Below, piece by piece: positions 44,317-64,000 of a stretch of 64,000 nucleotides of DNA (positions are counted from its first letter, which is position 1; each line of letters opens with the position of its first letter). The notes beneath the pieces were generated by a model, which worked only from the letters and a program-made list of their open reading frames with translations, was not told where the DNA came from and searched no databases. The translations under genes were made by a program, and so were the position numbers. This DNA is from Bifidobacterium apousia (GTDB taxonomy: Bacteria > Actinomycetota > Actinomycetes > Actinomycetales > Bifidobacteriaceae): the NCBI RefSeq assembly GCF_007559275.1, contig NZ_VMHK01000001.1:62001-126000 (forward strand). The letters run 5' to 3'.

Positions 44317-44520
44317 GATCCTCCTCCTTTTGGCTGGGCGACGCACCGGGGAGTCCGGGGTCGTACTGAAATTGCGATTCCTGATATGCCGGCTGGATGC
44401 CGGAACAGATTCATATGACCGGGTCCTTGAGCCGGTCCTCGAACGATTAGGGAGTCTATGCCACTGGTGTGGCTTTCCGCCTCCCATGGCCACAATATGT
44501 CATGCTAGTTGACCAATTGT

Positions 44521-45996
44521 TCATAGCGATTCCGGATCCCCGCTCAAATCCATCGTCTTCAGGGGCACGATCCGGGTATGGTAGCGGATCTTGTAGCCCA
44601 GGTAGAGGGCAAGCACCAGGGGCACGCTGATGTAGGTGACGCCGATCTCCTGCCAGTTCCAGTTGACGAAGGCCTCGATGTTCTGCCCGCCGATGACGAT
44701 GATGCACAGAATCAGGGCCAGGATGGGCCCCAGGGGGAAGAGCTTGGCATGGTAGCGCAGCTCCTCAACCCGGTGGCCCTGGACCACCCAGGCGCGGCGG
44801 AAGCGATAGTGGCTCAGAGCGATGCCGATCCAGACGATGAATCCGGTCAGGCCCGAAGCGGCCACCAGCCACATGTAGATCCGCTGGCCAAAGATGCTGG
44901 CGGCAAAGGTGGCCAGGGAGACCACCAGGGTGGCGACCAGCGAGGCCATGGGGATGCCATGACGGGTGGTGTGCCCGAAGAAGGCCGGGGCGTAATGGTC
45001 CTTGGCAAGGGCGTAGAGCATCCGGGTGGAAGCGTAGACCCCTGAGTTGGCGGACGAGAGGACCGAGGTCAGGATGATGGCGTTCATGACGCTGGCCGCC
45101 GAGGCCAGACCCGCCCGCTGGAAGACCATGGTGAAGGGCGACATGGCGATGTCCCCCTGGGCGGAGCTGAGCAGGTTGGGGCTGGTGTAGGGGATCAGCG
45201 CGGCGATGACGAAGATGGACAGGATATAGAAGAGCAGGATCCTCCAGAAGACATCATTGATGGCCTTGGGTACCGCCTTGCCGGGGTTTTCGGACTCGCC
45301 GGCCGTGACGCCGATCAGCTCGGTGCCCTGGAAGGAGAAGCCGGCAATCAAAAAGACGTTGAGAATGGCGGGGAATCCGCCCACGAAAGGCGCATCCTTG
45401 TAGGTGAAGTTGCCCAGGCCCACGGCCGGGCGGAACATGATGCCGCAGATCATGGCCAGACCGATGACCAGGAAGACAATCACTGTCACTACCTTGATCA
45501 GGGAGAGCCAGAACTCGGTCTCGCCAAAGGTGGACACGGTCAGGGCGTTGATCAGGAAAATGACCACCAGGACCAGCAGGCTCCATATCCATCCTGGGGT
45601 GTGGGGCAGCCAGTACTGGATCAGCAGGGCGGCGGTGGAGATGTCCACAGCCACGGTGATGGCCCAGTTCAGCCAGTAGTTCCAGCCCATGGCGAAGCCC
45701 AGGGCCGGATCCACATAGCGGGCGTTGTAGGCGGCGAAGGAACCGGAAGTGGGCAGGTGGGTGGCCAGCTCGCCCAGGCTGGTCATCAGGAAGTAGACCA
45801 TGAGGCCCATGGCCGCGTAGGCCACCAGCGCGCCTCCCGGTCCGGCCTTGGCGATAGTGGATCCGGAGGTCATGAACAGGCCCGTGCCGATGCAGCCGCC
45901 CAGGGCGATCATGGTGACGTGTCGGGTCTTGAGGTTGCGTTGGACCCGGTCGTCGGATGCGGAGGGGTCGTCTTTCCCGCCCTGCCTGGTCGCCAT
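44521..45996 (-). CDS. lysP: Lysine permease (APC superfamily), under lysine riboswitch
   Basis: 491 residues, 12 membrane helices, with LKTRHVTMIALGGCIGTGLF, GSFAAYNARYVDPALGFAMGWNYWLNW and GTELIGVTAGESENPGKAVP. It is a proton-coupled amino-acid importer of the AAT family that includes LysP. A lysine riboswitch in its 5' leader makes lysine the probable substrate, and the gene should be switched off when lysine is plentiful. Start ATG at 45996 with GAGGAGAAG upstream. The downstream paralogue at 42.8 kb probably belongs to the same regulon. The lysP symbol rests on the riboswitch rather than on distinctive residues. Confidence 0.85.
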   Translation of the reverse strand: MATRQGGKDDPSASDDRVQRNLKTRHVTMIALGGCIGTGLFMTSGSTIAKAGPGGALVAYAAMGLMVYFLMTSLGELATHLPTSGSFAAYNARYVDPALGFAMGWNYWLNWAITVAVDISTAALLIQYWLPHTPGWIWSLLVLVVIFLINALTVSTFGETEFWLSLIKVVTVIVFLVIGLAMICGIMFRPAVGLGNFTYKDAPFVGGFPAILNVFLIAGFSFQGTELIGVTAGESENPGKAVPKAINDVFWRILLFYILSIFVIAALIPYTSPNLLSSAQGDIAMSPFTMVFQRAGLASAASVMNAIILTSVLSSANSGVYASTRMLYALAKDHYAPAFFGHTTRHGIPMASLVATLVVSLATFAASIFGQRIYMWLVAASGLTGFIVWIGIALSHYRFRRAWVVQGHRVEELRYHAKLFPLGPILALILCIIVIGGQNIEAFVNWNWQEIGVTYISVPLVLALYLGYKIRYHTRIVPLKTMDLSGDPESL

Positions 45997-46582: not shown

Positions 46583-47908
46583 ATGAGAACCAGCAACAAA
46601 CGCATAATGGCGGCCATGGCTGCAGTCGCGGCCTTAAGCATGGCACTGGCCGGGTGCGGTTCCTCCGGCGGATCCGATGCCAACAAGAGCGGTGACACCA
46701 AGTCGGGCGGCAAGGTCGAACTGACATACCTGCACCGTCTTCCCGACAAGCAGGGCATGACCATGGTCAAGGACACCGTGGCCAGGTGGAACAAGGATCA
46801 CCCGAACATCCAGGTCAAGGCTACCAAGTTCAACGGCAGCCCCGGCGACCTGATTAAGAAGCTGGAGACCGACGTCAAGGCCGGTAATGCTCCCGATCTG
46901 GCCCAGGTAGGCTACGCTGAGTTGCCTGAGGTCTATACCAAGGGCATCGTCGAGGATGTCACTGCAGAGGCAGGCAAGTACTCCAAAGACTTCGCAGAGG
47001 GTCCCAGCAAGCTTATGAGCGTAGACGGCAAGGTCTTCGGTCTGCCCCAGGATACCGGCCCCATGGTCTACTACTACAACAAGACGGAATTCGACAAGCT
47101 GGGCATTAAGGTCCCCACCACGGCCGAGGAATTCATCGAATCGGCCAAGAAGGCAGCGGCTCAGGGTAAGTACATCATGACCTACCAGCCCGATGGTGCA
47201 GGCATGGCCTTCTCCGCCCTTTCCGGCGCGTCATCTCCCTGGTACAAAATCAAGGACGGCAAGTGGGTCGTCAATGTTGATACGCCCGGCTCCAAGGCCA
47301 CGGCCGACTTCTACCAGCAGCTGCTCGATGCCAAGGCGATGAATCTGACCCCCAGCACCGACCCCTCCTTCGCTGGTGCCTTCCATGACGGCTCCATCAT
47401 CGGATCCATTGATGCCGCCTGGAATGCCCCGATCATGATGGACTGGATCGGTGATGCCGGCAAGGGCCAGTGGAGGGTCACCCAGATCGGCGACTGGTTC
47501 AAGAACGGCGAGAAGACCGGACCCAACGGCGGTTCGGGTGTTGCAGCCATCAAGGGCACCAAGCACAAGGCAGAGGCCATGGAGTTCCTGGATTGGTTCA
47601 ACACCCAGGTGCCTGATCTGACCTCTCAGGGTCTGATTGTCGCGGCCTCCACCGAGAAAGCCAAGACCCCTCAGTCCTGGACCGAATTCTTCGGCGGGCA
47701 GGACGTGATGGCGGAATTCGCTAAGGCCAATGCCAACATGGGTTCCTTCAACTACATGCCCGGATTCTCCGCGGTGAGCAGCGCCGTCGGCGAGGCTGCG
47801 GACAAGGCCGGCAAGGGTCAAGCCAAGGTCTCCGATGCCTTCGATGCAGCGCAGAAGACGTCCCTTGCCACACTGAAGGATTATGGCCTTCCGATCGCCA
47901 AGGATTGA
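46583..47908 (+). CDS. gltA: LNB/GNB ABC transporter solute-binding lipoprotein
   Basis: 441 residues. A lipoprotein signal peptide ends in ALAGC with the lipidated Cys at residue 25, followed by a Gly/Ser/Asp linker and a CUT1-type sugar-binding fold (LTYLHRLPDKQGMTMVKDTVARWNKDHPNIQVK). Its place at the head of the GH112 operon identifies it as the binding protein for lacto-N-biose (Gal-beta-1,3-GlcNAc) and galacto-N-biose (Gal-beta-1,3-GalNAc), as in B. longum. It sits on the outer face of the membrane and passes sugar to GltB/GltC. A hairpin follows the gene, which may raise its mRNA level over the permeases. Confidence 0.88.
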   Translation: MRTSNKRIMAAMAAVAALSMALAGCGSSGGSDANKSGDTKSGGKVELTYLHRLPDKQGMTMVKDTVARWNKDHPNIQVKATKFNGSPGDLIKKLETDVKAGNAPDLAQVGYAELPEVYTKGIVEDVTAEAGKYSKDFAEGPSKLMSVDGKVFGLPQDTGPMVYYYNKTEFDKLGIKVPTTAEEFIESAKKAAAQGKYIMTYQPDGAGMAFSALSGASSPWYKIKDGKWVVNVDTPGSKATADFYQQLLDAKAMNLTPSTDPSFAGAFHDGSIIGSIDAAWNAPIMMDWIGDAGKGQWRVTQIGDWFKNGEKTGPNGGSGVAAIKGTKHKAEAMEFLDWFNTQVPDLTSQGLIVAASTEKAKTPQSWTEFFGGQDVMAEFAKANANMGSFNYMPGFSAVSSAVGEAADKAGKGQAKVSDAFDAAQKTSLATLKDYGLPIAKD

Positions 47909-48000: not shown

Positions 48001-48051
48001 GCCTGCTGGAAGGTCGCTCGCCTTATAGGTTCCGGGAGGATGGGTTTTCAC

Positions 48052-49008
48052 ATGAGCCATCGAACAGCAGCTGAGGCAGGGGCGCAGAAGAAGAGGAGAT
48101 CCGAGATCACCAAACGCAACGAACGGACGGGTTGGGCATTCATGATGCCTTTCTGCATCCTCTTTGCGATTGTCTTCATCATCCCCATTGCCTACGCCGT
48201 CTATATGAGCTTCTTCCAGCAGGTGGCCTCGGGCGGCGGCGCCTACGGCGGGGGCGAGATGATCAATAAGTTCGTCGGGTTGGAGAACTTCCGATTTACA
48301 GTCACCTCCGCGGCCTTCTGGACCGGCATCGGCAGGGTCCTGATCTACACGGTCATCCAGGTCCCGGTCATGATCATCGCAGCCCTGGCCCTGGCCATGC
48401 TTCTGGATTCCTTCATCGTCAAGCATGTCACCCCTTATCGGCTGGGCTACTTCCTTCCCTATGCCATCCCGGGCGCGATCGCGGCCATCATCTGGGTGTT
48501 CCTTTACAACGACCAGTTCTCGCCCATCGTCAAGGGCCTGGCAGCCATAGGAATACACGTCAACTTCTTCGCATCCAACGCTCTGATCGCCTCCATGGCC
48601 AACATCACCACCTGGACCTTCACGGGCTACAACATGCTGATCTTCCTGGCAGCCCTCCAGGCCATCCCGCGTGACCTCTACGAGGCTGCTCGAATCGACG
48701 GAGCCAATGGCTTCCAGATCGCCATGAGGATCAAACTCCCCAACGTCAGGGGGGCCGCCCTCCTGGCCATGCTCCTGTCCATCATCGGCAGCATCCAGCT
48801 CTTCAACGAGCCCCAGGTCATGCAGACCGTCGACAAGGGCATATCGAACTCCTACACCCCCATGATGATGGCCATGAACACATCACGGGGCATCCTCACC
48901 CCCAAGGGTGACGGTCCGGCTTCAGCCATCGCAATTGTCATGGCGCTGATTGCCGGGGTCCTTGCCGCCCTCTACGCATACATCGAGAGGAAGGTGAATG
49001 AATCATGA
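48052..49008 (+). CDS. gltB: LNB/GNB ABC transporter permease 1
   Basis: 318 residues, MalF/UgpA-type inner-membrane permease with six predicted helices. A basic cytoplasmic N-terminus (KKRRSEITKRNER) precedes helix 1. The EAA loop that contacts the ATPase reads EAARIDGANGFQIAMRIKLP. The ATG at 48052 (MSHRTAAEAG) has GGGAGGA upstream; the frame is open back to 47905, but that part overlaps gltA and is not protein-like. It overlaps gltC by four bases. No ATPase gene exists in the operon. Confidence 0.9.
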   Translation: MSHRTAAEAGAQKKRRSEITKRNERTGWAFMMPFCILFAIVFIIPIAYAVYMSFFQQVASGGGAYGGGEMINKFVGLENFRFTVTSAAFWTGIGRVLIYTVIQVPVMIIAALALAMLLDSFIVKHVTPYRLGYFLPYAIPGAIAAIIWVFLYNDQFSPIVKGLAAIGIHVNFFASNALIASMANITTWTFTGYNMLIFLAALQAIPRDLYEAARIDGANGFQIAMRIKLPNVRGAALLAMLLSIIGSIQLFNEPQVMQTVDKGISNSYTPMMMAMNTSRGILTPKGDGPASAIAIVMALIAGVLAALYAYIERKVNES

Positions 49009-49940
49009 CCTCGGCCAATCCCGCACGCCTTGCAAAAAAGCAGGACAAGCTCCTCAAGCAGAAGGCCGATGAGCTGCCTCGCTCCATGAGACCCACCAAG
49101 GTGGTCAAGATTACCACCATCGTGGTCCTGGTCTTCGCTCTGATCTACTTCCTCTTTCCCATCTATTGGGCCATCATCGCCTCTACCAAGTCACCCTCCC
49201 AGCTGGTCAGCAGCAACGGCCTCTGGTTTGCTGTCGACCTGAAGAAGATTCCCCAGGCGGTGGCCACCAACTACTCGATCCTCCTGGGCTGGACCCACTC
49301 GCAGTTCTGGCACTGGGTCTTCAATTCCTTGATCTATTCAGGGGTCTCCGCCCTGATCGGCACGGTGGTTTCGGTCATGGCCGGGTATGGCACAGCCAAG
49401 TTCCAGTTCCGGGGCAGGGGCGTCGTCATGACCATCGCCATGTCTGCCCTGCTGATGCCCTCGGCGCTGATGACCATCCCCCAGTACTCCATCTTCAACG
49501 CCCTGCATCTGAGCAACACCATGCTGGCAGTGATCATCCCCTGCTCGGTCTCGCCCTTCGGTTTCTTCCTGGGAAGGGTATACGCCCAAAGTTCGGTACC
49601 TACCGAGCTTCTGGAGGCGGCCAGGATCGACGGTGCCGGTGAGGCCAGGATCTTCTTCACGATTGTGCTCAGGATTCTTGCGCCCGCCATGGTCACGATC
49701 TTCCTCTTCCTCTTCGTGGCCACCTGGAACAACTTCCTCCTGCCGCTGATGATGCTCTCCAGCGAGAACCTCTTCCCAGTGACCCTGGGCCTCTATGGTC
49801 TGGTCTCTCTGCCGGTCTTTACCGATCGAGGGGCGCTGATGATGGGGTCCCTGCTGGGTGTTCTGCCGGTGATCATCCTCTTCTTCTGCCTGCAGCGGTT
49901 CTGGCAGGCTGGACTGACCGCCGGTTCGGTCAAGGAGTAA
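49005..49940 (+). CDS. gltC: LNB/GNB ABC transporter permease 2
   Basis: 311 residues, MalG/UgpE-type permease with six helices and the EAA loop EAARIDGAGEARIFFTIVLR. Starts in a four-base overlap with gltB. With GltB it forms the membrane channel for the disaccharides delivered by GltA. It needs a separately encoded ATPase, plausibly the MsmK-type protein at 15.8 kb. Confidence 0.9.
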   Translation: MTSANPARLAKKQDKLLKQKADELPRSMRPTKVVKITTIVVLVFALIYFLFPIYWAIIASTKSPSQLVSSNGLWFAVDLKKIPQAVATNYSILLGWTHSQFWHWVFNSLIYSGVSALIGTVVSVMAGYGTAKFQFRGRGVVMTIAMSALLMPSALMTIPQYSIFNALHLSNTMLAVIIPCSVSPFGFFLGRVYAQSSVPTELLEAARIDGAGEARIFFTIVLRILAPAMVTIFLFLFVATWNNFLLPLMMLSSENLFPVTLGLYGLVSLPVFTDRGALMMGSLLGVLPVIILFFCLQRFWQAGLTAGSVKE

Positions 49941-50006: not shown

Positions 50007-53285
<3,279 letters not shown>

Positions 53286-53286
<1 letters not shown>

Positions 53287-54758
53287 TGCTGAAACGGGTT
53301 TACCGGAGCCTTGACGCTCTGATCGGGTACGCCTGTGCAAGTCTGGACCTGGACCCGTCCGATGTCGACTGGGTTCGCAATCAGATACTGGCGCTTTTCT
53401 CCTTGGACTCCTACGATTCCGGGGATGGACCTGCTGATCCCGCCTCTGGTGGCGTCGATGATCTCCTGGAATCCTTTATACAGGCTTTGGAGGGTGCCGG
53501 ACTTATGGCTCAGGATGATGCCCCTTCCATGGCAGATACGGTTATGGGAATCCTGTCCTCCAGGCCATCCCATCTGCAGTGGCGCTTCACACAGGTGGAG
53601 AGGGCCCAGGGTGGTATGGCCGCCATGCACTGGTTCTATGACTATTGCGTCAAAAACACCTACATCAAAAAGTCCCGCCTGGATAGGAACCCTCGTTTCT
53701 CATCCGGGGGCGTGGTGGTCACCGTCAACCTGGCCAAGCCGGAATTCAAGGATATGAAGAAGGCTGCGGCGGGCAACAGCACCGCAGGAGGGTACCCCAA
53801 GTGCACAATCTGCCATGAAAATGAGGGCTTCGCCGGGCGTGACAAGCGTACACTGCGGACCATCCCCCTGACTCTGGGTGGGCATGACTGGTTCTGGCAG
53901 TTCTCGCCCTATGGGTACTTTCGCGAGCATGGCATCTGTGTCAACGCTGATCACACCCCCATGCACGTGGACCAGGACACCTTCGGGAACCTGCTGGATT
54001 TTGTGGACCGTTTTCCCGGCTACTTCCTAGGCTGCAACGCTGCCCTGCCCCGCATTGGCGGATCCGTTCTGGCCCATGACCACTATCAGGGCGGAGGAGA
54101 GCGCCTGCCTATGCATCAGGCCAGGGCTTGGCGAACCTTGCACTTGGACGGCCATCCTGATACCCCTATCGAGATTCTGGACTGGCCGGGGACCGTGGTC
54201 AGAGTGGTTTCGCCATTGCGGCAGGAGATTATCGAGGCCAGCGAGACCATCAGGCAGGCCTGGGTGGATTACGATAACCCGGACCTGAACATCACCAGCC
54301 AGGGATCAGAAGGGCGGCAATCAGCCCTGTCGCCCACCCTGGTCAAGACCGACCGAGGCTACGAGATGAGCCTGATCCTGCGTAATAACGGTGTCAGTTC
54401 GGAGTTTCCTGATGGCATCTTCCATGTGCATCCGGAGTTCTATCCGGTCAAGCAGGAACCCATTGGCCTGATTGAGGCCCAGGGGCTCTTCGTCCTGCCC
54501 GGAAGGCTGCTCGGCCAGCTTGCCTGCCTGGAAGAGGCCCTGGTGGCAGGTACCGGGCTTCCCGAACAAGTAGCCGACTTCAGCCTGGAGTATGGCGAAA
54601 TTACTAAGACTCTGCAGGGTTCGCATGATCCAGACAAGGTACATGAGGCCCTTAAGAGTGAGATCGGCAGTGTCTGCGCCCGGATCCTGGGCAACACCGC
54701 AGTCTTTAAGCGGCCCGAGCAGACCGAGGGGTTCCTGCGGGGGCTGGGTTGCCGGTAG
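53286..54758 (+). CDS. lnpC: UDP-glucose--hexose-1-phosphate uridylyltransferase (GalT class 2)
   Basis: 490 residues. It exchanges UMP between UDP-glucose and galactose 1-phosphate, or N-acetylhexosamine 1-phosphates in this pathway. The class 2 nucleotidyl site H264-D-H266 lies in GGSVLAHDHYQGGGER, and KCTICHENEGFAGR carries the zinc-type cysteines. ATG overlaps the nahK stop (TGATG). In B. longum this position is followed by galE (lnpD); here the next gene is a GH101 enzyme, so the epimerase must be encoded elsewhere. Confidence 0.94.
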
Positions 54759-54796
54759 TGGCGTAGATGAATAACACCAATGACAGGGGATGACCG

Positions 54797-57700
54797 ATGG
54801 ATGAAACAATCATGGGCGGACACCAGCCGATCGCGAGGCCGGGTGCCACGGACTCCTGGGAGACCCTGCGTACTCAAGTAATGGAAGTGCGCCTCAGGCC
54901 CGACTTTCCTTCGGTGATTGACTATCGGTTGAAGACGCCTCAGGCTGAAAGAACCATGCTTGGGCAGGTCCGGGATCTGCGTCTGGTGGCCATCAACGGC
55001 ATCGAGATTGAGCTGGGTCCCGATCGGGTGGAGCTGGAGCGGGAGAATGAGACCAGTCTGGTATATCGACTTCATGTGATTGCTGCAGGTCAGGGGATCG
55101 ATGTGGTTTTGGCGATCCGTATCTCAGTCGAGGACGCCTCTCTGAGATTCGAAGTGATCTCCATCCGGAACCAGGCCTGCCCCGATCATCTAGTCCAGAC
55201 GGTGGCCTTCCCCGGACAATGCCTGATTTCCGTGGCCAGTACTCAGGCGCATGCGGAGTTTACCGGCGCTCGCATGTCTGCGGACGTCTCCATCAGTGGT
55301 GATGTACACCGGGCGGTCACCGAGCAGATGGAGGAGGACCCTATTGGGCAGGACTACATGTATGGTTTCCTCTCTGCGGATGGCCTCAGTGCCGGCCTCT
55401 GGAGCAACTCCGAACATGACGGGACCACTGCCAGCAAAACGGGAACCGGTGGTGCGCAGAACACCAGGGTTCTGGCGGTTCGCGACCAGGTGGACGGAGT
55501 CACCGTCCTCGGCCTGACCAGCGCACCTTGGATATACAACCGGGTGGTCCAGGATTCCCATGGACGCTCTTATACGGTCGGGGAGACGGACAAGCCCGCC
55601 ATGGCCGTGGCTCTGGCCGGAGACCTGAATGATGACGGGGTGGTCAACTGGCAGGATGGTGCCATCGCCTTCAGGCACATCATGAACAATCCGTACGGTT
55701 CTGATGATATCCCGGATCAGGTGGCACGACGCATAGCCATGAACTTCGGCTCTCAGGCCCAGAATCCCTTCATGACAACCTTGGATAATGTCAAGCGGGT
55801 GGCCCTGGCCACCGATGGCCTAGGTCAGTCCATACTTCTCAAGGGATATGGCAACGAGGGCCACGACTCTGGCCATCCGGACTACGACGACATCGGTCGA
55901 CGAATGGGCGGAGTCCAGGACTTGAATGCTTTGATGGACAGGGGCAAGGCCTATGGGGCCCGGTTTGGCGTCCATGTCAATGTGGACGAGATGTTTCCCG
56001 AGGCCAAGGCCTTTTCTGAAGACATGATTCGCAGGGACGACAAGGGCGGTCTCTGCTACGGCTGGAACTGGCTGGATCAGACCGTTGGTATCGATGGCAT
56101 CTACGACCTGGCCTCGGGTGCCAGGAGGGAGCGCTTCGCCGCACTCGCCCGTGAGGTCGGTGACAGGATGGACTTCGTGTACGTGGATGTCTGGGGCGAT
56201 GGGACCTCGGGGGAGGAGGATTCCTGGCAAACCAGGCAGCTCTCGAAGATTTTGACCGATAACGGGTGGGGGATTGGCACGGAGTACGCTTCGGCCAACG
56301 AGTATGACGCCACCTTCCAGCATTGGTCCCTGGATTTGACCTATGGATCCCCCCGCGACAAAGGTGAGAATTCCCAGGTCATGCGCTTTCTGCGCAACCA
56401 CCAGAAAGACAGCTGGATAGGTGATCACCGAGCCTTCGGAGGCGCAGCCAACGCCCCGCTCCTGGGCGGCTACAGCATGAAGGACTTCGAGGGCTGGCAG
56501 GGGCGCAATGACTTCGATGCCTATATGGATAACCTCTACACCTGCGACCTCTCGACCAAGTTCATCCAGCACTTCAGAATCATGGCCTGGTACAACGACC
56601 CTATCAATGTCGATTCAGTACGTGACTCGACCAAAAATCAGGGGAACGAACAGATCGAGCTGGTCAATGATCAAGGTGACAGACTGATCATCTCCAGGGG
56701 TTCCAATGAGCAGGCATCGCCCGCTTACCGCGAGCGCACGATGAGGCTGAATGGCTGCGTGGTGCTTGTCGGCGATCTGAAGGCCAATGACCCCAAGGCC
56801 GACAAGCCTGGGATTGAAACTGGAACCGGCGAAGGGGCGTATCTGCTGCCCTGGGTCTGGAATGCCAAGACAGGTGACCTGCTTGATCCAGATGAGCAGA
56901 AGCTCTACCACTGGAATACTGCAGGCGGCTCGACCGCCTGGGAGCTCCCGGAATCGTGGCGCGATGCCTCTACCGTCATTGTCTACCGGCTGACCGACCA
57001 GGGCAGATCGGAGTCAAGGGAGATTCCGGTGGTGCAGGGGAGCCTCACCCTGGATGCCAAGCCCAGAACACCCTACTTGGTCTGCCGGCATGCGGGCCAG
57101 GGAGTCCAGATGGACTGGTCGGGAGAGCATCTAGTGGATGCAGGGTTCAACGGCGGCGAAAGGCTGTTCCAGTCGGTCTGGTCCGTGAAGGGGCCCGGGC
57201 GTGCCTCAATCACCAAGGGCCAGTGCGCCAATCCCATGCTCAGGCTTGAGGATTCGGTCTGTGCTGTGCAACCCCTGACCAACCTGGTGCCAGGTAGACG
57301 GTATGCCCTCTATCTAGGGCTTGACAACCGTGGCGGCCAGGTCGAGCTGAGTATAGAAGCGGACCAGGGTGGGGTGCTGGCTCGCAATATGAGCGGCCCG
57401 AGCATTGCCAAAAACTATGTCAAGGCCTATGCTCACAACACCGATGCTCCAACGACTGACGGCAGCAGCTACTTTCAGAATGCCTATCTCTTCTTCACGG
57501 CGCCTAAGGGTGGGCAGACCTGTCTGTCCTTGGCGCATGAAGGGGATGGTGTCGCGTATGTCGACGACATTCGCCTGGTCGAGAACGACTATGACGGCAT
57601 CAGCCTGGACCAGGACGGTCATCTGATTGAGCTTACCTGTGACTTCGAGAATAACGTCCAGGGGATCTGGCCCTTTGTGGTAGCTGGGGCCGAAGGGGTG

Positions 57701-58177
57701 GAAGACAACCGAATCCACCTGGCCCAGCTGCATGAGCCCTTCACTCAGGCCGGGTGGACGGTCAAAAGGATGAATGATGTCCTCCAGGGTAACTGGTCTC
57801 TGAAAGTCAACGGTCTGACTGGAAGACGCGCTCTCCTCTTCCAGACCATTCCCCAGAACGTCCCCTTTGCGCCGGGCCGACACTACAGGGTCTCGTTCGA
57901 TTACCAGTGCGGATCAGACGGCATATACGCCCTGGCAACAGGAAGAGGCGAGTATTCCGGTGAGAACTCGAACCTGCATCTGCATCCCCTGCACAAGGCT
58001 CTGGGGGTCACTGCCAAATGCGAGTTCGAGCTGACTGGCGATCCGAATGGCGGTACCTGGTTCGGCATTTACTCCACTGACAGACAACCAGATCTGGAAG
58101 GCAGCAGCGGCTCGGAGGCCAACATGGCTGGCTACCAGGATCTGGTTGTCGACAATCTGTGGATTACCAGTCTCTAG
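54797..58177 (+). CDS. Cytoplasmic endo-alpha-N-acetylgalactosaminidase-like GH101 enzyme
   Basis: 1126 residues. GH101 enzymes release the core-1 disaccharide Gal-beta-1,3-GalNAc from Ser/Thr of mucin-type glycoproteins. Visible: an N-terminal beta-sandwich (about 20-260), a Ca-loop-like DLNDDGVVNWQDGAIAFR near 275-295, and a catalytic TIM-barrel with FVYVDVWGDG (D464, likely nucleophile) and GIGTEYA (E496, likely acid/base). The barrel also has HVNVDEMFPEA, and C-terminal carbohydrate-binding-like beta-sandwiches follow (about 760-1126). Unlike B. longum EngBF (about 1970 residues, secreted and wall-anchored), it has no signal peptide, no anchor and no transmembrane segment, and galT lies only 38 bp upstream. 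It is therefore predicted to be intracellular, feeding GNB to LnpA. Confidence 0.85.
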   Translation: MDETIMGGHQPIARPGATDSWETLRTQVMEVRLRPDFPSVIDYRLKTPQAERTMLGQVRDLRLVAINGIEIELGPDRVELERENETSLVYRLHVIAAGQGIDVVLAIRISVEDASLRFEVISIRNQACPDHLVQTVAFPGQCLISVASTQAHAEFTGARMSADVSISGDVHRAVTEQMEEDPIGQDYMYGFLSADGLSAGLWSNSEHDGTTASKTGTGGAQNTRVLAVRDQVDGVTVLGLTSAPWIYNRVVQDSHGRSYTVGETDKPAMAVALAGDLNDDGVVNWQDGAIAFRHIMNNPYGSDDIPDQVARRIAMNFGSQAQNPFMTTLDNVKRVALATDGLGQSILLKGYGNEGHDSGHPDYDDIGRRMGGVQDLNALMDRGKAYGARFGVHVNVDEMFPEAKAFSEDMIRRDDKGGLCYGWNWLDQTVGIDGIYDLASGARRERFAALAREVGDRMDFVYVDVWGDGTSGEEDSWQTRQLSKILTDNGWGIGTEYASANEYDATFQHWSLDLTYGSPRDKGENSQVMRFLRNHQKDSWIGDHRAFGGAANAPLLGGYSMKDFEGWQGRNDFDAYMDNLYTCDLSTKFIQHFRIMAWYNDPINVDSVRDSTKNQGNEQIELVNDQGDRLIISRGSNEQASPAYRERTMRLNGCVVLVGDLKANDPKADKPGIETGTGEGAYLLPWVWNAKTGDLLDPDEQKLYHWNTAGGSTAWELPESWRDASTVIVYRLTDQGRSESREIPVVQGSLTLDAKPRTPYLVCRHAGQGVQMDWSGEHLVDAGFNGGERLFQSVWSVKGPGRASITKGQCANPMLRLEDSVCAVQPLTNLVPGRRYALYLGLDNRGGQVELSIEADQGGVLARNMSGPSIAKNYVKAYAHNTDAPTTDGSSYFQNAYLFFTAPKGGQTCLSLAHEGDGVAYVDDIRLVENDYDGISLDQDGHLIELTCDFENNVQGIWPFVVAGAEGVEDNRIHLAQLHEPFTQAGWTVKRMNDVLQGNWSLKVNGLTGRRALLFQTIPQNVPFAPGRHYRVSFDYQCGSDGIYALATGRGEYSGENSNLHLHPLHKALGVTAKCEFELTGDPNGGTWFGIYSTDRQPDLEGSSGSEANMAGYQDLVVDNLWITSL

Positions 58178-58245: not shown

Positions 58246-59109
58246 TTAGCCTCGACTAGATTCGCCTCTCTGAATGGTCCGTGAAGCAATCTGTGCGAAT
58301 TCATCCCAGAGTGGTTCCGGTATTTCATGGGCCATTCCAGAGTAAATATGCAGTTCTGAATTCCTGAGTAGCTGGGAAATCCGAATGCCGGCTTTAGGGC
58401 TGAAGAAGGGATCGCGGCGTCCATGAATGATTGCTGCTGGCAGGGTCAATTTGCCGAGCTTGTTTTGGTCCAGACTGAAGGAGTTTGTTGCAGCCTGCTG
58501 CCTCCTCCATCCGTCGGGTCGATAGCAACGGTCATACGTCAGCGCTCCCAGTTGGCGGGCTTTCTCTTCATTGAAGGGATAGGCAGAATTGACATGACAG
58601 GCTTTTTCTCGTGATACGAAAAGATCGATGGCCTGGTCGCGGTTCGATGCGACATCGAGACCGGCGTTGTTACCTGACTCGGCAGAGTCGGCAGTCGACA
58701 TCCATTCCTTTCCCCAGGATGGGGCCGTGAACATGATGACGGCTGAGCTAATGCGATCGGGATAATCGACCAGAACCTCTTGTGTGATCATTCCGCCCAT
58801 TGATTCGCCCATGATGTTGAAAGTCTTGAGCTTTTCTGCATCTGCAACCGCCAAGACATCATTGGCCATGTCGGTAATGTCATAAGCTTTGTCAGTTTGG
58901 TCGGGAGTTCCTGTTTGGCTGGATAGACCGACATCCCTATTGTCAAGTAAAATGGTCTGAATGCCCAGATCGTTCAGTTTCTGCACGAATCCTTTGTCCC
59001 AACCAACTAGTTGAGCTGTGTATCCTTCAATCATGATCAGGGCAGGCCCATCGACAGGACCATACTTTTCGTAATAGATGGATATGTCACCGTTGTGAGC
59101 ATAGGGCAT
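58246..59109 (-). CDS. Alpha/beta-fold hydrolase
   Basis: 287 residues, single-domain alpha/beta hydrolase. The nucleophile elbow is GESMGG (S103), DNRDVGLS is a conserved lid-side motif, and a late GRRDPFFSP with SGMAHEIPEPLW supplies the acid Asp and catalytic His. It resembles esterases/lactonases of the 3-oxoadipate enol-lactonase group but the substrate is unknown. It lies 43 bp downstream of an MFS transporter gene on the same strand, with a LacI-family regulator divergent beyond it, so it probably processes what the transporter imports. Base composition is clearly less GC-rich than the flanks. Start ATG at 59109 with AAAGGAAG upstream. Confidence 0.85.
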   Translation of the reverse strand: MPYAHNGDISIYYEKYGPVDGPALIMIEGYTAQLVGWDKGFVQKLNDLGIQTILLDNRDVGLSSQTGTPDQTDKAYDITDMANDVLAVADAEKLKTFNIMGESMGGMITQEVLVDYPDRISSAVIMFTAPSWGKEWMSTADSAESGNNAGLDVASNRDQAIDLFVSREKACHVNSAYPFNEEKARQLGALTYDRCYRPDGWRRQQAATNSFSLDQNKLGKLTLPAAIIHGRRDPFFSPKAGIRISQLLRNSELHIYSGMAHEIPEPLWDEFAQIASRTIQRGESSRG

Positions 59110-59152
59110 GATATTTGCTTCCTTTCATACAGTAATTTTTTAAGTACTATGG

Positions 59153-60412
59153 TCACTTGACCGAACGAATCAGCATCGCAAAAATTCCGCCGAGCAACGA
59201 GGTCACGATGCCAAACACGAAGACAGACACATAGGAGCCGGTGGCATTAATGAGCGTAGAACCGATCAGGGGGGCTACTGCTGCCGGAACCGAGGTGGCA
59301 ATGGCTAGGATGCCAAGATCCCTGCCCTCGTTGGCCTTATTGGGCAGAACCAAGGACATGACCGCAATATCTACGGCGAAGTAGACGCCGCCTGCTGCCC
59401 CATTGATGGCCGCATAAATCAGCATTCCTGTCCAGCTATGCATAACGAGCGGGACGACGAATGAAGTCATGAAGACCAATGAGGACAGTGCGACAATCAG
59501 TTTTCTGCGGTTGAGGAGATCTGCCACCTTGCCGAAGACCACAATTGCGATTATCTGGGCGATGGTGGAGATGGTCGAAACCGTGGCAACCCCTGCCGTG
59601 GCGTTGTTGCCGGGGAGGTTTTTAGTGCCAATGTAGTCAGTCAGAATAAAGAATGTGAAATTGGATATGGCAAAAGATGCAAAGTAGAAAGCGAACCTTG
59701 ATAGAAAAGCCATAGAGAAGTCCCAGTGGAGAAATGCAGAGAAGAAATGTCCTACAGCATTGAGGCTCCAACTGGAATGTTGCTTTCTCGCTGGTTTAGG
59801 CATATCCAAGGACGGGGCTTCTGGAGCAAAAAGGCAGAACAGAAGTGAAGCCAGAAGAATGAAAGCTCCAATGATCACGTATCCCCAGTGCTGGCCGGTT
59901 CGTGATACCACGTTGACGAAAATTAGGATGCCAAACGGAAGACCCAACCCAGTGACCGAAGAAGCTACTCCTCGGTTCTCCTCAGGAATCCTGTCGGGAA
60001 TTACCGCGTAGATAACGCCCTGAAACCAGTTGGCGAAAAACCAGACCAAACCCGCGAAAACAATAACCATGGCGATGCTGGTCATCATGCCCATTCCAAC
60101 ACACATGAGTGCTGTGCCTATTGCGGAGAACATCAGCCAGGGCGTCCGCTTCCCAAACCTCGAACGTGTTCTGTCTGAAATAGCAGCGCCAATGGGAAGG
60201 ATCACAGTGCCAACGATTGACTCGACCAGTGAAGCCACGGCTGTGTCATGGACCTTATTGGTCGCATTGATGCTGACGATCTGAGCAGGCAATAGAACTT
60301 GATTGATTGCTTGGTACACCCCATATAGTCCAACTATGGCTGGGAACAGAAGTACAAGAATCCGTGTGACGCTTACGGGGCGTCTGACGCTGACCGCTTC
60401 CTCGTTTTTCAC
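59153..60412 (-). CDS. MFS sugar-type transporter controlled by the LacI operator
   Basis: About 419 residues with 12 helices. The loop 2-3 motif SDRTRSRFGKRTPWLMF is typical of SLC45/GPH-like sugar transporters, and the partner MADLLNRR-type loop (GKVADLLNRRKLIVALSSL) is in the second half. GTG at 60412 was chosen because AAGGAGATCAACT precedes it at ideal spacing; the in-frame ATG at 60454 would overlap the operator. A strong promoter and LacI operator lie just upstream. Likely imports a glycoside or small carbohydrate used by the hydrolase (context inference). Confidence 0.83.
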   Translation of the reverse strand: MKNEEAVSVRRPVSVTRILVLLFPAIVGLYGVYQAINQVLLPAQIVSINATNKVHDTAVASLVESIVGTVILPIGAAISDRTRSRFGKRTPWLMFSAIGTALMCVGMGMMTSIAMVIVFAGLVWFFANWFQGVIYAVIPDRIPEENRGVASSVTGLGLPFGILIFVNVVSRTGQHWGYVIIGAFILLASLLFCLFAPEAPSLDMPKPARKQHSSWSLNAVGHFFSAFLHWDFSMAFLSRFAFYFASFAISNFTFFILTDYIGTKNLPGNNATAGVATVSTISTIAQIIAIVVFGKVADLLNRRKLIVALSSLVFMTSFVVPLVMHSWTGMLIYAAINGAAGGVYFAVDIAVMSLVLPNKANEGRDLGILAIATSVPAAVAPLIGSTLINATGSYVSVFVFGIVTSLLGGIFAMLIRSVK

Positions 60413-60446
60413 AGTTGATCTCCTTCGCTCATCTTGCATCCTCGCA

Positions 60447-60477
60447 AGTAACACGTATTAGTAACACGTGTTACTAA
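60447..60477. promoter_or_regulatory. LacI-type operators between MFS gene and regulator
   Basis: TTAGTAACACGTGTTACTAA (60458-60477) is a perfect 20-bp palindrome with the central CG typical of LacI-family operators. An imperfect second copy, AGTAACACGTATTA, starts 13 bp earlier (60447). The main operator covers the expected transcription start of the minus-strand promoter, so binding should block the MFS-hydrolase operon. Confidence 0.88.
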
Positions 60478-60480
60478 GTT

Positions 60481-60508
60481 ATAATAAACTGATCTAGGAT
60501 TTTGTCAA
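60481..60508 (-). promoter_or_regulatory. Promoter of the MFS-hydrolase operon
   Basis: On the minus strand, a consensus -35 TTGACA (60508-60503) is followed by a 16-bp spacer and -10 TATTAT (60486-60481). A plus-strand TATAAT (60480-60485) overlaps it and may serve the regulator gene. Confidence 0.75.
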
Positions 60509-60532
60509 ATAGAGGTGTAGAGGGGCATCCGC

Positions 60533-61543
60533 ATGAGCAGACGAAAGGCGAAAAGTCAGGATGTGGCAAATCGAGCTGGCGTTTCCAGAACAACGGTCAG
60601 CTTGGTGCTTAATCACCGCGCTGCCAACATTCCTGAGCAGACCCGCAAAAAGGTTCTTCAGGCAGTCAAGGAGCTCGAATTTATTCCATCTGCAGCAGCA
60701 AGGACCTTGAGAAAGGGCAAAGGATCAATTGTGCTCTGTCTGACAGTCAACGCTGAGCCTTCCTCCCGTGCGGATGAAGCATGGAGCTCCTTGAGCGAGA
60801 AACTTCATGATCGAGGCCTGGTTTGCATCTTCTCGAGAACTGCGGGTTCAACCACTCCGCTCCGTCAGCTCTTGTGGGAGATAACTCCGAGCGTAGTCGT
60901 GCCTTTTTTTGATCTGAGTGTCGATGACAAAGCCATGCTACAGCAAATGGGTATACCTGTTGTAGAGTTTTTTAGGCCGCAGAATAAAGAGGCAATAAAG
61001 GGCCAACCCATTCAGTTGTTTGCCGATTTCCAGGTCCAGCTCGGTACAGTTCAAGCGAATTATTTATTGAATAAAGGGTGTGACAAGATTGCCTATGTAG
61101 GGACTGCGACTCCGAGTAGTAGCGCCATGATGAACGATCGTATAAAGGGTGTTCGTAGAGCCCTGGAGGCAGCAGGTCTTGAACTGGTTTCCAATGGAAG
61201 TATTTCTCTTCACGACAACGGCCAGTCGGCTAAATTGATGGTCGAGAGGCTTAGAGAGGCAGAATGTGACGGGGTCTGTGCTTTCAATGATGAGCATGCT
61301 GCTCCGATTATGGCTCAAGCACAAAAGCAAGGTATACGGGTTCCTCAAGATATGCGCATAATTGGAGTGGACAATGAGCCAATCAGTGCTTATCTGCAGC
61401 CTGCATTGACCAGTATCGATTACGACAGCATCATCCCTGCATATCTCGATAGCATTGTTGCGGCATGTAACTCGTCTGCAAAACCGGCTCCAGTTGAGCG
61501 CAACGATGCCACCTTGTGGGTGGTCGAACGAGAATCTGCATGA
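60533..61543 (+). CDS. LacI-family transcriptional regulator
   Basis: 336 residues. N-terminal helix-turn-helix SQDVANRAGVSRTTVSLVLN (residues 8-27) with the hinge-helix IPSAAARTLRKGK, then a periplasmic-binding-like sensor domain ending VDNEPISAYLQPALTSIDYD. It is divergent from the MFS-hydrolase operon with a perfect palindromic operator between them, so it very likely represses that operon and itself until a small sugar or related ligand binds. ATG at 60533 has GAGGGG upstream. Lower GC than the surrounding chromosome. Confidence 0.93.
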   Translation: MSRRKAKSQDVANRAGVSRTTVSLVLNHRAANIPEQTRKKVLQAVKELEFIPSAAARTLRKGKGSIVLCLTVNAEPSSRADEAWSSLSEKLHDRGLVCIFSRTAGSTTPLRQLLWEITPSVVVPFFDLSVDDKAMLQQMGIPVVEFFRPQNKEAIKGQPIQLFADFQVQLGTVQANYLLNKGCDKIAYVGTATPSSSAMMNDRIKGVRRALEAAGLELVSNGSISLHDNGQSAKLMVERLREAECDGVCAFNDEHAAPIMAQAQKQGIRVPQDMRIIGVDNEPISAYLQPALTSIDYDSIIPAYLDSIVAACNSSAKPAPVERNDATLWVVERESA

Positions 61544-61625: not shown

Positions 61626-63083
61626 TCAGGCTCGTCGCTGGGTCAGCTGGTAGGCCGTCAGAAGGACGATCAGCCAGATGGGCCCGGCGATGACGGCTAC
61701 CCGGTAGCTGGACGAGAAGCACATGAGCACCACGATCATGGCCAGGAAAGCCAGGACCGCCCAAGGGGTCACCCGCGCAAAGGGCAGCTTGAAGTGCAGG
61801 GCGTTCACAGCGCTCTCACCGGTCTTGCCCGTCAGGTCGCCCGGCCCCTCGCCTCGTGCCACGGCACGCCGGAAGAGCATCTCGGTCACCATGATCATGG
61901 ACCAATTGATGATGGCCGAGATCGTGGCGATGCTCATCAGATAGTTGAAGGCGAACTGGGGCCAGAGGAAGACCACGACCACGGCCAGGGCGATGATGCA
62001 GGCCGAGGTCAGCACTCCTGCGTAGGGCACGCCGCCCTTGGACAGGCGGCTCAGGTACCGGGGGGCATTGCCCTGCCGGGCCAGGGAGAAGAGCATGCGG
62101 GAGTTGGAGTAGAGGGCCGAGTTGTAGACGCTCATGACCGCCGTCAGGCAGACGAAGTTGAGGATGCCTGCGGCCGCGTGGACTCCCACCGAGTCGAATA
62201 TCTGGACGAAGGGGCTGACGACCATGCCCTGTGCGTTGGGCTTGCCGATGGCATTCCAGGGGACTACGGCCATGATCACCCCAAGCGTCAGGATGTAGAA
62301 GACCAGAATCCTCCAGATGATGGCGTTGGTGGCCTTGGGGATGGTCCGACGGGGATCGGAGGCCTCTCCGGCGGTGATGCCGATGAGCTCGGTGCCGCCG
62401 AAGCTGAACATGACCACCGCCAGCGACATGAGCAGACCGGTCCACTGGCCATTGGCCCCGTGCCGCATGAGTCCATTGGGCAGGAACCCGCCGCCTACAG
62501 TGAACCAGTTGGCGAAGGAGGCCCGCAGTCCGTTTGCGGTGGGCAGGGCCAGGATGATGACCGCCAGACCTCCGATGATCATGGCGATGATGGCCGCGAT
62601 CTTGATGATGGCGAACCAGAACTCGAACTCGCCGAACTTGCTGACTCCCATCAGATTGGCGGCCGTGATGACTACCAGGAAGAAGGCCGCAGAGACCCAG
62701 GCGGGGATTGCCGGGAACCAGAAGTTGACGAAGGTGCCCACCACGGACAGCTCAACCATGGATACCAGCACGTAGTTCATCCAGTAGTTCCACCCAGAAA
62801 CGAACCCTGCCCGCTTGGACCAGTAGCGGGTGGCGTAGTAGCTGAAAGCGCCGGACTTGGGGTCTTCCACGCTCATTTCGCTCATGGCCCTGACGATCAT
62901 GAAGATGGCCAGACCGCCTATCAGGTAGGCGATGATGATGGCCGGCCCTGCCAATGAGATGGATTCCCCGGACCCGTAGAAGAGTCCCGTTCCGATGGCG
63001 CCGCCCAGCGAGATGAGCTGGATGTGCCTGTTCTTCAGGGTTTTGCGCAGGTTCTTGCCCTGCGACTCCTTGGGTTGATCCAT
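61626..63083 (-). CDS. Amino-acid permease (APC superfamily, AAT family)
   Basis: 485 residues with 12 membrane helices: KNRHIQLISLGGAIGTGLFYGSGESI, YWSKRAGFVSGWNYWMNYVLV and GTELIGITAGEASDPRRTIPKATN. It resembles the AroP/ProY/LysP importers; the exact amino acid is not evident. ATG at 63083 (MDQPKES) follows TAAGGAATG; a longer frame to 63221 is not supported. Divergent from a second APC permease with a 302-bp gap. It is a different subgroup from the LysP pair at 42.8-46.0 kb, with a shorter N-terminus. Confidence 0.88.
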   Translation of the reverse strand: MDQPKESQGKNLRKTLKNRHIQLISLGGAIGTGLFYGSGESISLAGPAIIIAYLIGGLAIFMIVRAMSEMSVEDPKSGAFSYYATRYWSKRAGFVSGWNYWMNYVLVSMVELSVVGTFVNFWFPAIPAWVSAAFFLVVITAANLMGVSKFGEFEFWFAIIKIAAIIAMIIGGLAVIILALPTANGLRASFANWFTVGGGFLPNGLMRHGANGQWTGLLMSLAVVMFSFGGTELIGITAGEASDPRRTIPKATNAIIWRILVFYILTLGVIMAVVPWNAIGKPNAQGMVVSPFVQIFDSVGVHAAAGILNFVCLTAVMSVYNSALYSNSRMLFSLARQGNAPRYLSRLSKGGVPYAGVLTSACIIALAVVVVFLWPQFAFNYLMSIATISAIINWSMIMVTEMLFRRAVARGEGPGDLTGKTGESAVNALHFKLPFARVTPWAVLAFLAMIVVLMCFSSSYRVAVIAGPIWLIVLLTAYQLTQRRA

Positions 63084-63385
63084 GGGGATGTCATTCCTTA
63101 GGTGGTAGTGGTCAGCTGAATGTGACCGGCTGACAGGGCCAACCCTATAGGAGCCGGTCCGAGCGGAATGAGTATGCCTTTGCATTGTGGAACAGAAGCG
63201 TCCGTCATATGAGACGGTCAATTCACCGGATGGTGACCGTCAGGTCCTACCATGGGCGTCGGTGCCTGCCGTCTGCTCCCGGTTATCGACACCTCTGTGG
63301 TATTGCTGTCCTACCGGCCTTGATGGGATATCCCTTTCTGGACGGCGATAAGTAATGGGTTGTGAAGACAAGGAGGTGCAGTCGC
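63084..63385. other. 302-bp divergent region between two permeases
   Basis: No gene. Two overlapping inverted repeats share an arm: CCGTC (63202-63206)/GACGG (63213-63217) and GACGGTCA (63213-63220)/TGACCGTC (63234-63241). They could be mutually exclusive hairpins in a leader or adjacent regulator sites. No promoter could be fixed. Confidence 0.4.
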
Positions 63386-64000
63386 ATGAACCGTACGGGC
63401 AATGGCCCTTTGGCACAGCAGAATCAAGGTGACAGCGCCTCGGCAGGCGACGGCATGGAACGCGGTCTGAGCAACCGTCATGTACAGTTCATCGCCATCG
63501 GCGGCACCATCGGCACCGGGCTCTTCCTGGGGTCGGGCAAGTCCATAGCCCTGACCGGTCCCTCCATCATCCTGGTCTACATCGGGGTGGGGCTGATCAT
63601 GTACCTGCTCATGCGGGCCATCGGCGAGCTCATGTATCGCAGCCCCGTCCAGCACACCTTCATCGCCTTCATCAGCCGCTACCTGGGCCAGGGGTGGGGG
63701 TCCTTCGCCGGCTGGTCCTACTGGATCGTGCTCATCCTGATCGGCATGTCCGAGCTGACTGCCGTGGGCACCTACTTCGTCACTTTCTTCGGCACCTTCG
63801 GCATTGATCTGAGTGCCTGGCGGGGTCTGATCGAGCTCTGCTTCCTGGCGGCCATGGTGTGCATCAACCTGATTGCCGTGCGGGTCTTCGGGGAGACCGA
63901 GTTCTGGTTCTCCATGATCAAGATCACCCTGATCCTGGCCATGATCGCCACGGCCGTGGTCATGGTCATCATGGGCTTCCACTATCCGGCCGTTCGCATG
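63386..64000 (+). CDS. Amino-acid permease, CycA-like, C-terminus off the window
   Basis: The first 205 residues are visible, with an open frame at the edge. It starts with ATG at 63386 behind AAGGAGGTGCAG. LSNRHVQFIAIGGTIGTGLFLGSGKSIALTGPS, RAIGELMYRSPVQHTFIAFISRYLG and SYWIVLILIGMSELTAVGTYF are characteristic of the D-serine/D-alanine/glycine (CycA) branch of the APC superfamily. About five to six of twelve helices lie inside the window. Divergent from the permease at 61.6-63.1 kb. Confidence 0.9.
   Translation, partial: MNRTGNGPLAQQNQGDSASAGDGMERGLSNRHVQFIAIGGTIGTGLFLGSGKSIALTGPSIILVYIGVGLIMYLLMRAIGELMYRSPVQHTFIAFISRYLGQGWGSFAGWSYWIVLILIGMSELTAVGTYFVTFFGTFGIDLSAWRGLIELCFLAAMVCINLIAVRVFGETEFWFSMIKITLILAMIATAVVMVIMGFHYPAVRM

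Follow-up and report, generated by a model that had tools for sequence, protein, structure and literature searches.

EngBF, the GH101 enzyme of Bifidobacterium longum, carries a signal peptide and an anchor, and the galacto-N-biose (GNB) that it produces feeds the lacto-N-biose (LNB)/GNB pathway. Published descriptions place bifidobacterial EngBF outside the cell (PMC8106489, PMC7674204, PMC7232152, PMC6109692) and give the LNB/GNB cluster of infant-gut species an ATP-binding cassette (ABC) importer, a GH112 phosphorylase, NahK and GalT (PMC8106489). GH129 NagBb from Bifidobacterium bifidum, an enzyme lacking a signal peptide, was proposed to act on GalNAc-Ser/Thr in the cytosol once an unknown transporter has brought this substrate in (PMC7232152, PMC6109692). 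Lactobacillus casei imports the glyco-amino acid fucosyl-GlcNAc-Asn in its alf-2 pathway, and a similar cluster is found in B. asteroides Bin2 (PMC6960285).

Here we describe a stretch of 64,000 nucleotides of Bifidobacterium apousia (the window; contig NZ_VMHK01000001.1), in which an LNB/GNB operon ends in a gene for a GH101 enzyme. This protein has the catalytic core in common with EngBF (about 1400 bits over 1100 residues), has the same lid motif and would supply the same pathway. EngBF is extracellular, whereas the window protein consists of five core modules only, is encoded behind lnpC and is rich in cysteine. Like NagBb, it is signal-less and would cut O-glycosylated Ser/Thr inside the cell; NagBb, however, belongs to another glycoside hydrolase family and frees GalNAc from the Tn antigen, not GNB from core 1. 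A preliminary description of the locus had offered the intracellular route as a new idea. This was overstated, as the NagBb route on GalNAc-Ser/Thr had already been proposed (PMC7232152, PMC6109692); what the window adds to that theme is a very probably cytoplasmic GH101 within an operon.

An EngBF-type catalytic core

The GH101 gene starts with an ATG preceded by an AGGGG ribosome site, and its frame of 1126 residues is intact up to the stop. The gene and its predicted catalytic codons are as follows.

54797..58177, + strand: signal-less GH101 endo-alpha-N-acetylgalactosaminidase, final operon gene (open reading frame, Pfam, EngBF match, motifs, hydropathy)
56186..56188, + strand: codon of D464, predicted nucleophile (aligned to the D of EngBF YLDVWG; invariant in 6/6)
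56282..56284, + strand: codon of E496, predicted acid/base (aligned to the E of EngBF TTEWG; invariant in 6/6)

In a Pfam search (E <= 0.01), the protein matched five GH101 core modules exclusively: Gal_mutarotas_3 (residues 25-285), Glyco_hydro_101 (286-577, 6.1e-120), Glyco_hyd_101C, GH101_dom-5 and GalBD_like. Its closest solved relatives are EngBF chains, at about 1400 bits over residues 20-1123, and it is 53-58% identical to 20 secreted bifidobacterial GH101s. The NF040533 model (endo_SpGH101) reached 1064.5 bits, under its cut-off of 2900, with positions 599-1684 of 1962 matched. D464, E496, W423 and W425 are invariant between the window protein and its five orthologs. Both tryptophans sit within YGWNWLDQ, as in EngBF, and this lid motif is present in all six signal-less proteins. 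We take the aligned residues to be the counterparts of the EngBF catalytic pair D789/E822 and of its lid. The assignment as a GH101-type protein with a D464/E496 pair, made earlier from the letters of the DNA, is thus borne out by the profile search, the EngBF alignment and the invariance of the pair. No second GH101 was found in the window's genome.

The motifs EGHD, VHVN, RFLRN (of the RFLxN type) and GWNWLD were found in all six signal-less GH101s. EGHD, VHVN and RFLxN are named in PMC11861894 along with POGase Motif-1, AWGWMNQ. The POGase type, a broad O-glycanase of Actinomycetota, was rejected, since AWGWMNQ is absent and YGWNWLDQ takes its place in 6/6.

Missing export parts and location of the enzyme

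Export signals were judged from hydropathy and by eye. The window protein peaks at 1.32 (12-residue average) within its N-terminal 80 residues and at 0.19 (19-residue average) near its C-terminus. Across the six signal-less GH101s the corresponding peaks are 0.89-1.32 and 0.14-0.26; five secreted GH101s from this genus reach 2.24-2.45 and 2.31-2.95. Neither a hydrophobic N-terminus nor a C-terminal anchor was found by these means in any of the six. LPxTG is absent from the window protein, and likewise from the five secreted forms. Among 15 further GH101s of the family seen at full length, a C-terminal membrane segment is present in every one and a hydrophobic start of at least 1.77 in 13; those at loci L079 and L081 show no such start in the frame that was read. 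An earlier start cannot add a signal peptide, because an in-frame TGA (54791-54793) lies one codon ahead of the ATG; a TGA holds this position in 6/6. A missed upstream signal was accordingly rejected: the 330 bases upstream, inspected by eye, are the end of lnpC, with no signal-like stretch in the other frames. Judged in this way, the earlier statement that the enzyme has no signal peptide, membrane helix or sortase motif stands.

The surface modules are missing as well. One of the five same-genus secreted forms, scanned with Pfam (locus L018), adds GH101_N, CarboxypepD_reg, a helical bundle, F5/8 type C and FIVAR modules, none of which was matched in the window protein. By hydropathy and eye, the signal peptide and surface anchor of a canonical extracellular GH101 are seen in the five sister operons and lacking here. 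Cysteine content also sets the two forms apart, with 9-12 cysteines in each signal-less protein and 0-1 in the cores of the 20 secreted bifidobacterial GH101s; per 1000 residues, the values are 9.2 for the signal-less GH101, 0.3 for the secreted cores and 7.2 for LnpA of the same operon. We read this as cysteine avoidance in secreted proteins, a high content marking a long stay in a reducing compartment. Since cysteine content and absent surface modules lend independent support, we are confident that the window GH101 resides in the cytoplasm, and on this point, location only, the preliminary description holds.

Leaderless surface enzymes of Gram-positive bacteria are known, BgaC of Streptococcus pneumoniae being cited in PMC6160142, and GH101 could in principle be released by leaderless export or cell lysis and act on intact external glycoproteins as EngBF does. 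We regard this as very unlikely given the cysteines, the lack of binding or anchoring modules and the fact that sister species retain a form with a signal-like start and a membrane anchor.

The operon

GH101 begins 38 bp past the lnpC stop, which completes the order gltABC-lnpABC-GH101. The LNB/GNB set of gltABC, lnpA, nahK and galT2 is complete in the window.

46583..47908, + strand: gltA, substrate-binding lipoprotein of the GNB/LNB ABC importer (SBP_bac_1; 7vfq/7vfr 591/590 bits, GL-BP 2z8d 575 bits)
48040..49008, + strand: gltB, ABC permease, with the ATG at 48040 taken as start (BPD_transp_1; 79-81% identical to gltB of the five alternative operons)
49005..49940, + strand: gltC, ABC permease (BPD_transp_1)
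50007..52172, + strand: lnpA (TIGR02336, 1198.6 bits, cut-off 560.3)
52201..53286, + strand: lnpB (nahK), N-acetylhexosamine 1-kinase (APH domain; same-place orthologs in ten other operons of the genus)
53286..54758, + strand: lnpC (galT2), UDP-hexose-1-phosphate uridylyltransferase (NF003632, 776.5 bits, under the cut-off of 865)

GH101 was confirmed as the last gene of the operon, a position that it holds in 6/6 genomes. Compared with the familiar gene order of the infant-gut cluster, the window operon has no galE (lnpD) and gains GH101 at its end. The claim that GH101 stands in place of galE, on the other hand, did not survive. No galE was matched in the window, or behind lnpC in the five secreted-type operons, with the galE of the window's own genome as query, and galE sits elsewhere in all 11 GH101-bearing genomes of the genus; a replacement of galE by GH101 is therefore not supported. 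No GH20 was found in the window's genome, which makes a GH20 lacto-N-biosidase an unlikely source of LNB.

APC-type amino-acid permeases flank the operon at 42811-45996 and 61626-64000, and similar permeases lie nearby in 5/5 orthologous stretches. Between GH101 and the second permease, positions 58246-61543 hold genes for an esterase, a major facilitator superfamily (MFS) transporter and a LacI regulator, present in the window and at locus L017 (genome G020) and without match in the four other orthologous stretches. This segment looks like an inserted cassette because its GC content is lower than that of its surroundings (0.51-0.52 over two 2-kb intervals; 0.59-0.61 in the intervals that adjoin them). 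The alpha/beta hydrolase at 58246-59109 matched macrolide esterase models well under their cut-offs (best NF052610, 124.8 bits, cut-off 420).

Two alternative operons

Among 27 genomes of the window's genus, GH101 is present in 11, as six frames of 1125-1129 codons and five of 1822-1829 codons. lnpA occurs in exactly the same 11 and neither gene in the other 16 (Fisher p 8e-8, not corrected for kinship). A search of these genomes for signal-less GH101 near lnpA returned six, in each of which the gene follows gltABC-lnpABC, whereas the secreted GH101 lies ahead of gltA in 5/5; no genus genome surveyed carries both forms. The secreted operon of the sister species (GH101-gltABC-lnpABC) thus belongs to the same genus and pathway, is linked to GH101 and also lacks galE, but is led by a GH101 of 1821-1828 residues with a signal-like start and a membrane anchor.

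In the family, the GH101 domain was matched in 46 of 189 genomes and GH101 was found at full length at 31 places in 30 genomes. Frames near 1125 codons are only the six of the window's genus; 20 of the 25 longer GH101s were read at full length, and among the other five, that of G079 runs into the end of its contig. When 394 genomes were drawn from the whole class, GH101 was matched in 17, the window's own included. We inspected five of the 16 other matches. To the eye, three of them, with 1049-1099 codons, begin with a hydrophobic stretch of twin-arginine-like character; L092 combines a hydrophobic start with LPxTG, and L091 lacks a clear start. In Bifidobacteriaceae genus g5, many genomes have frames of 515-786 codons with weak partial GH101-domain matches (within positions 41-179), perhaps a related family.

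The six signal-less GH101s form one clade with 100/100 support, on a stem branch of 0.64 changes per site. galE is 89.9-98.2% identical between the two species groups (mean 95.7%), and a galE tree does not resolve these groups. Between the two operon types, identities are 72-74% for lnpA, 63-64% for gltA, 79-81% for gltB and 57-58% for GH101, or about 57-81% for the operon proteins overall. The two operons therefore appear to be old alternatives, possibly exchanged between species. The same figures rule out a recent loss of the signal from an otherwise shared operon.

Secreted forms have modules flanking the core that are missing from the window protein at both ends, as would be seen in a decaying relic of a secreted gene or a truncation artefact. 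We give this explanation next to no credence, since the signal-less GH101s come from six genomes, are 78-95% identical to the window protein and keep open frames, ribosome sites and invariant catalytic residues, and the loss is not recent, as judged from galE.

Change in the enzyme and the importer

Rates were obtained from three-point distances with outgroup rows from other genera of the family, of which 17/19 passed the length limit for gltA, 19/19 for gltB, 26/30 for gltC and 30/30 for lnpA; 15 rows were available for GH101. The branch ratio of the signal-less to the secreted lineage is 1.77 for GH101 (95% interval 1.56-2.02), 1.42 for gltA (1.09-1.83) and 0.54 for lnpA (0.42-0.66). With few outgroup rows, the ratio is 2.00 for gltA (one row) and 2.13 for GH101 (two rows), and it falls with 17 and 15 rows. 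The ratios for nahK and galT2, from two outgroup rows each, are 0.66 and 0.72. We also counted replaced sites, defined as conserved in at least 95% of all other sequences and occupied by one other residue in all six signal-less ones. These number 39/517 in GH101, 17/184 in GltA, 9/197 in GltB, 6/199 in GltC and 6/407 in LnpA, and GltA exceeds GltB and GltC combined (15/396; Fisher p 0.011). E205G, W259T, E281N and D315N are among the 17 GltA replacements. As far as these sequence comparisons go, GH101 and GltA changed together and LnpA hardly at all, which fits a changed ligand.

The nearest solved relative of the window GltA is 7VFQ, described as a binding protein of B. infantis with lacto-N-tetraose bound (PMC12345172). 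A GltA-type pocket can therefore accommodate a disaccharide that carries an extension at its reducing end. A B. infantis mutant without two GNB/LNB importers retained strong growth on GNB (PMC12345172), so other transporters can carry GNB.

The long stem branch and the 39 replaced sites of GH101 would also suit a cytoplasmic enzyme that acts on another alpha-linked GNB conjugate, such as a glycolipid head or a bacterial glycan fragment, or that is a transglycosidase. This is highly improbable in our view: the core-1 active-site motifs and the lid are unchanged, and the phosphorylase of the operon takes free GNB.

A proposed intracellular route

We propose the following route. Insect glycoproteins would be digested by proteases of the host or of the bee gut to short glycopeptides bearing core 1, or to Gal-beta1,3-GalNAc-alpha-Ser/Thr. 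These conjugates would be taken up by GltABC, our first guess, or by an oligopeptide importer, and GH101 would cleave the GalNAc-Ser/Thr bond inside the cell. The freed GNB would pass directly to LnpA, yielding Gal-1-P and GalNAc, and from there through NahK, GalT2 and the chromosomally distant GalE to glycolysis. The signal-less operon would then be a private, import-first alternative to the secreted-GH101 operon of the sister species.

Core 1 is described as the most prevalent insect O-glycan (PMC8024498). Close orthologs were found, in a scan of genome records, in B. asteroides ESL0199, B. mizhiense S053-2, a Bifidobacterium metagenome-assembled genome and Bifidobacterium sp. B4142. Apart from B. 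asteroides, we presume a bee origin for these carriers and for the organism of the window. A B. asteroides strain was isolated from the honeybee hindgut (PMC5540593). Since the named relatives are bee-gut bifidobacteria, the glycoprotein source is likely to be insect and not mammalian. GH101 is among the families raised in a bee gut metagenome (PMC12198164), and tables in PMC8074910 associate GH112 with an infant-food group, and GH101 with B. bifidum and not with bee species. Among the open-licence matches listed, there was no report of a GH101 in the cytoplasm, nor any work on GH101 or GNB use in bee bifidobacteria. A GH129 search matched none of the 11 GH101-bearing genomes, and its controls did not match either.

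The gene set, the core-1 motifs and the predicted location suggest that the window GH101 probably cuts imported core-1 glyco-amino acids or glycopeptides. That GltABC carries these substrates is a tentative proposal, which the replaced GltA sites may favor. GltA is still a clear GL-BP ortholog, and GltABC could import only free GNB from other gut members while a cytoplasmic GH101 served a side stream of glycopeptides brought in by oligopeptide importers. In keeping with such a stream, SBP_bac_5 peptide-binding proteins occur in 27/27 genus genomes, with 4-5 per signal-less genome (five in that of the window) and 5-11 in the others. Nevertheless, the replacement of 17/184 conserved sites in GltA, against 15/396 in GltB and GltC and 6/407 in LnpA, hints at a changed ligand, and we consider this combination of a GNB-only GltABC with a glycopeptide side stream unlikely.

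Several observations weigh against the proposed route. Free GNB or LNB is the usual GltA ligand (PMC12345172), and the operon would be functional without GH101 if neighbors supplied GNB. The branch ratios of gltB (1.41, 0.94-2.14) and gltC (1.35, 0.94-1.89) are near that of gltA, neither being significant alone, and the faster change may partly be a general effect on the importer, or a general relaxation. A peptide route would not stand out in gene content, SBP_bac_5 proteins being present in all 27 genomes. The six signal-less genomes, being closely related, do not count as independent cases; the GH101 tree did not settle the position of their clade among bifidobacterial GH101s, and the tree program issued a warning about the letter composition of the aligned sequences. 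The tie between lnpA and GH101 is special to the window's genus, because in the family lnpA scored above its cut-off in 59/189 genomes and GH101 was of full length in 30. Finally, a promoter and terminator scan performed at chance level, so that a single transcript from gltA to GH101 is deduced from gene spacing.

The alf-2 pathway resembles the proposed route in that a glyco-amino acid is imported and cut inside the cell, but it differs from the window operon in serving an N-glycan core with an MFS permease and different enzymes. Elsewhere in the window's genome, an intact Asparaginase_2 gene (L112:1408-2403; possible glycosylasparaginase) lies beside an MFS permease. Near-full-length Asparaginase_2 matches occur in 4/6 signal-less and 1/5 secreted-type genomes, with partial or broken ones in several others. 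The locus may correspond to the glyco-amino-acid pathway of the alf-2 type that has been reported for B. asteroides Bin2.

Implications

One honeybee-gut lineage may have rebuilt its whole GNB operon to be import-first, with GltABC re-specialized and GH101 moved to the cytoplasm, while its sister species kept the secreted version, so that public-goods and private strategies coexist. We offer this larger picture as a possibility rather than a conclusion. If it is true, bifidobacteria can eat mucin-type O-glycans without sharing the sugar, and host O-glycan foraging would extend to an insect symbiont. The transporter for NagBb substrates was named as unknown in PMC7232152; with importer and enzyme in one operon, the question of an O-glyco-amino-acid transporter would become directly testable. 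The alternative operons of these close relatives would also provide a clean pair for asking why gut bacteria cut outside the cell or inside it.

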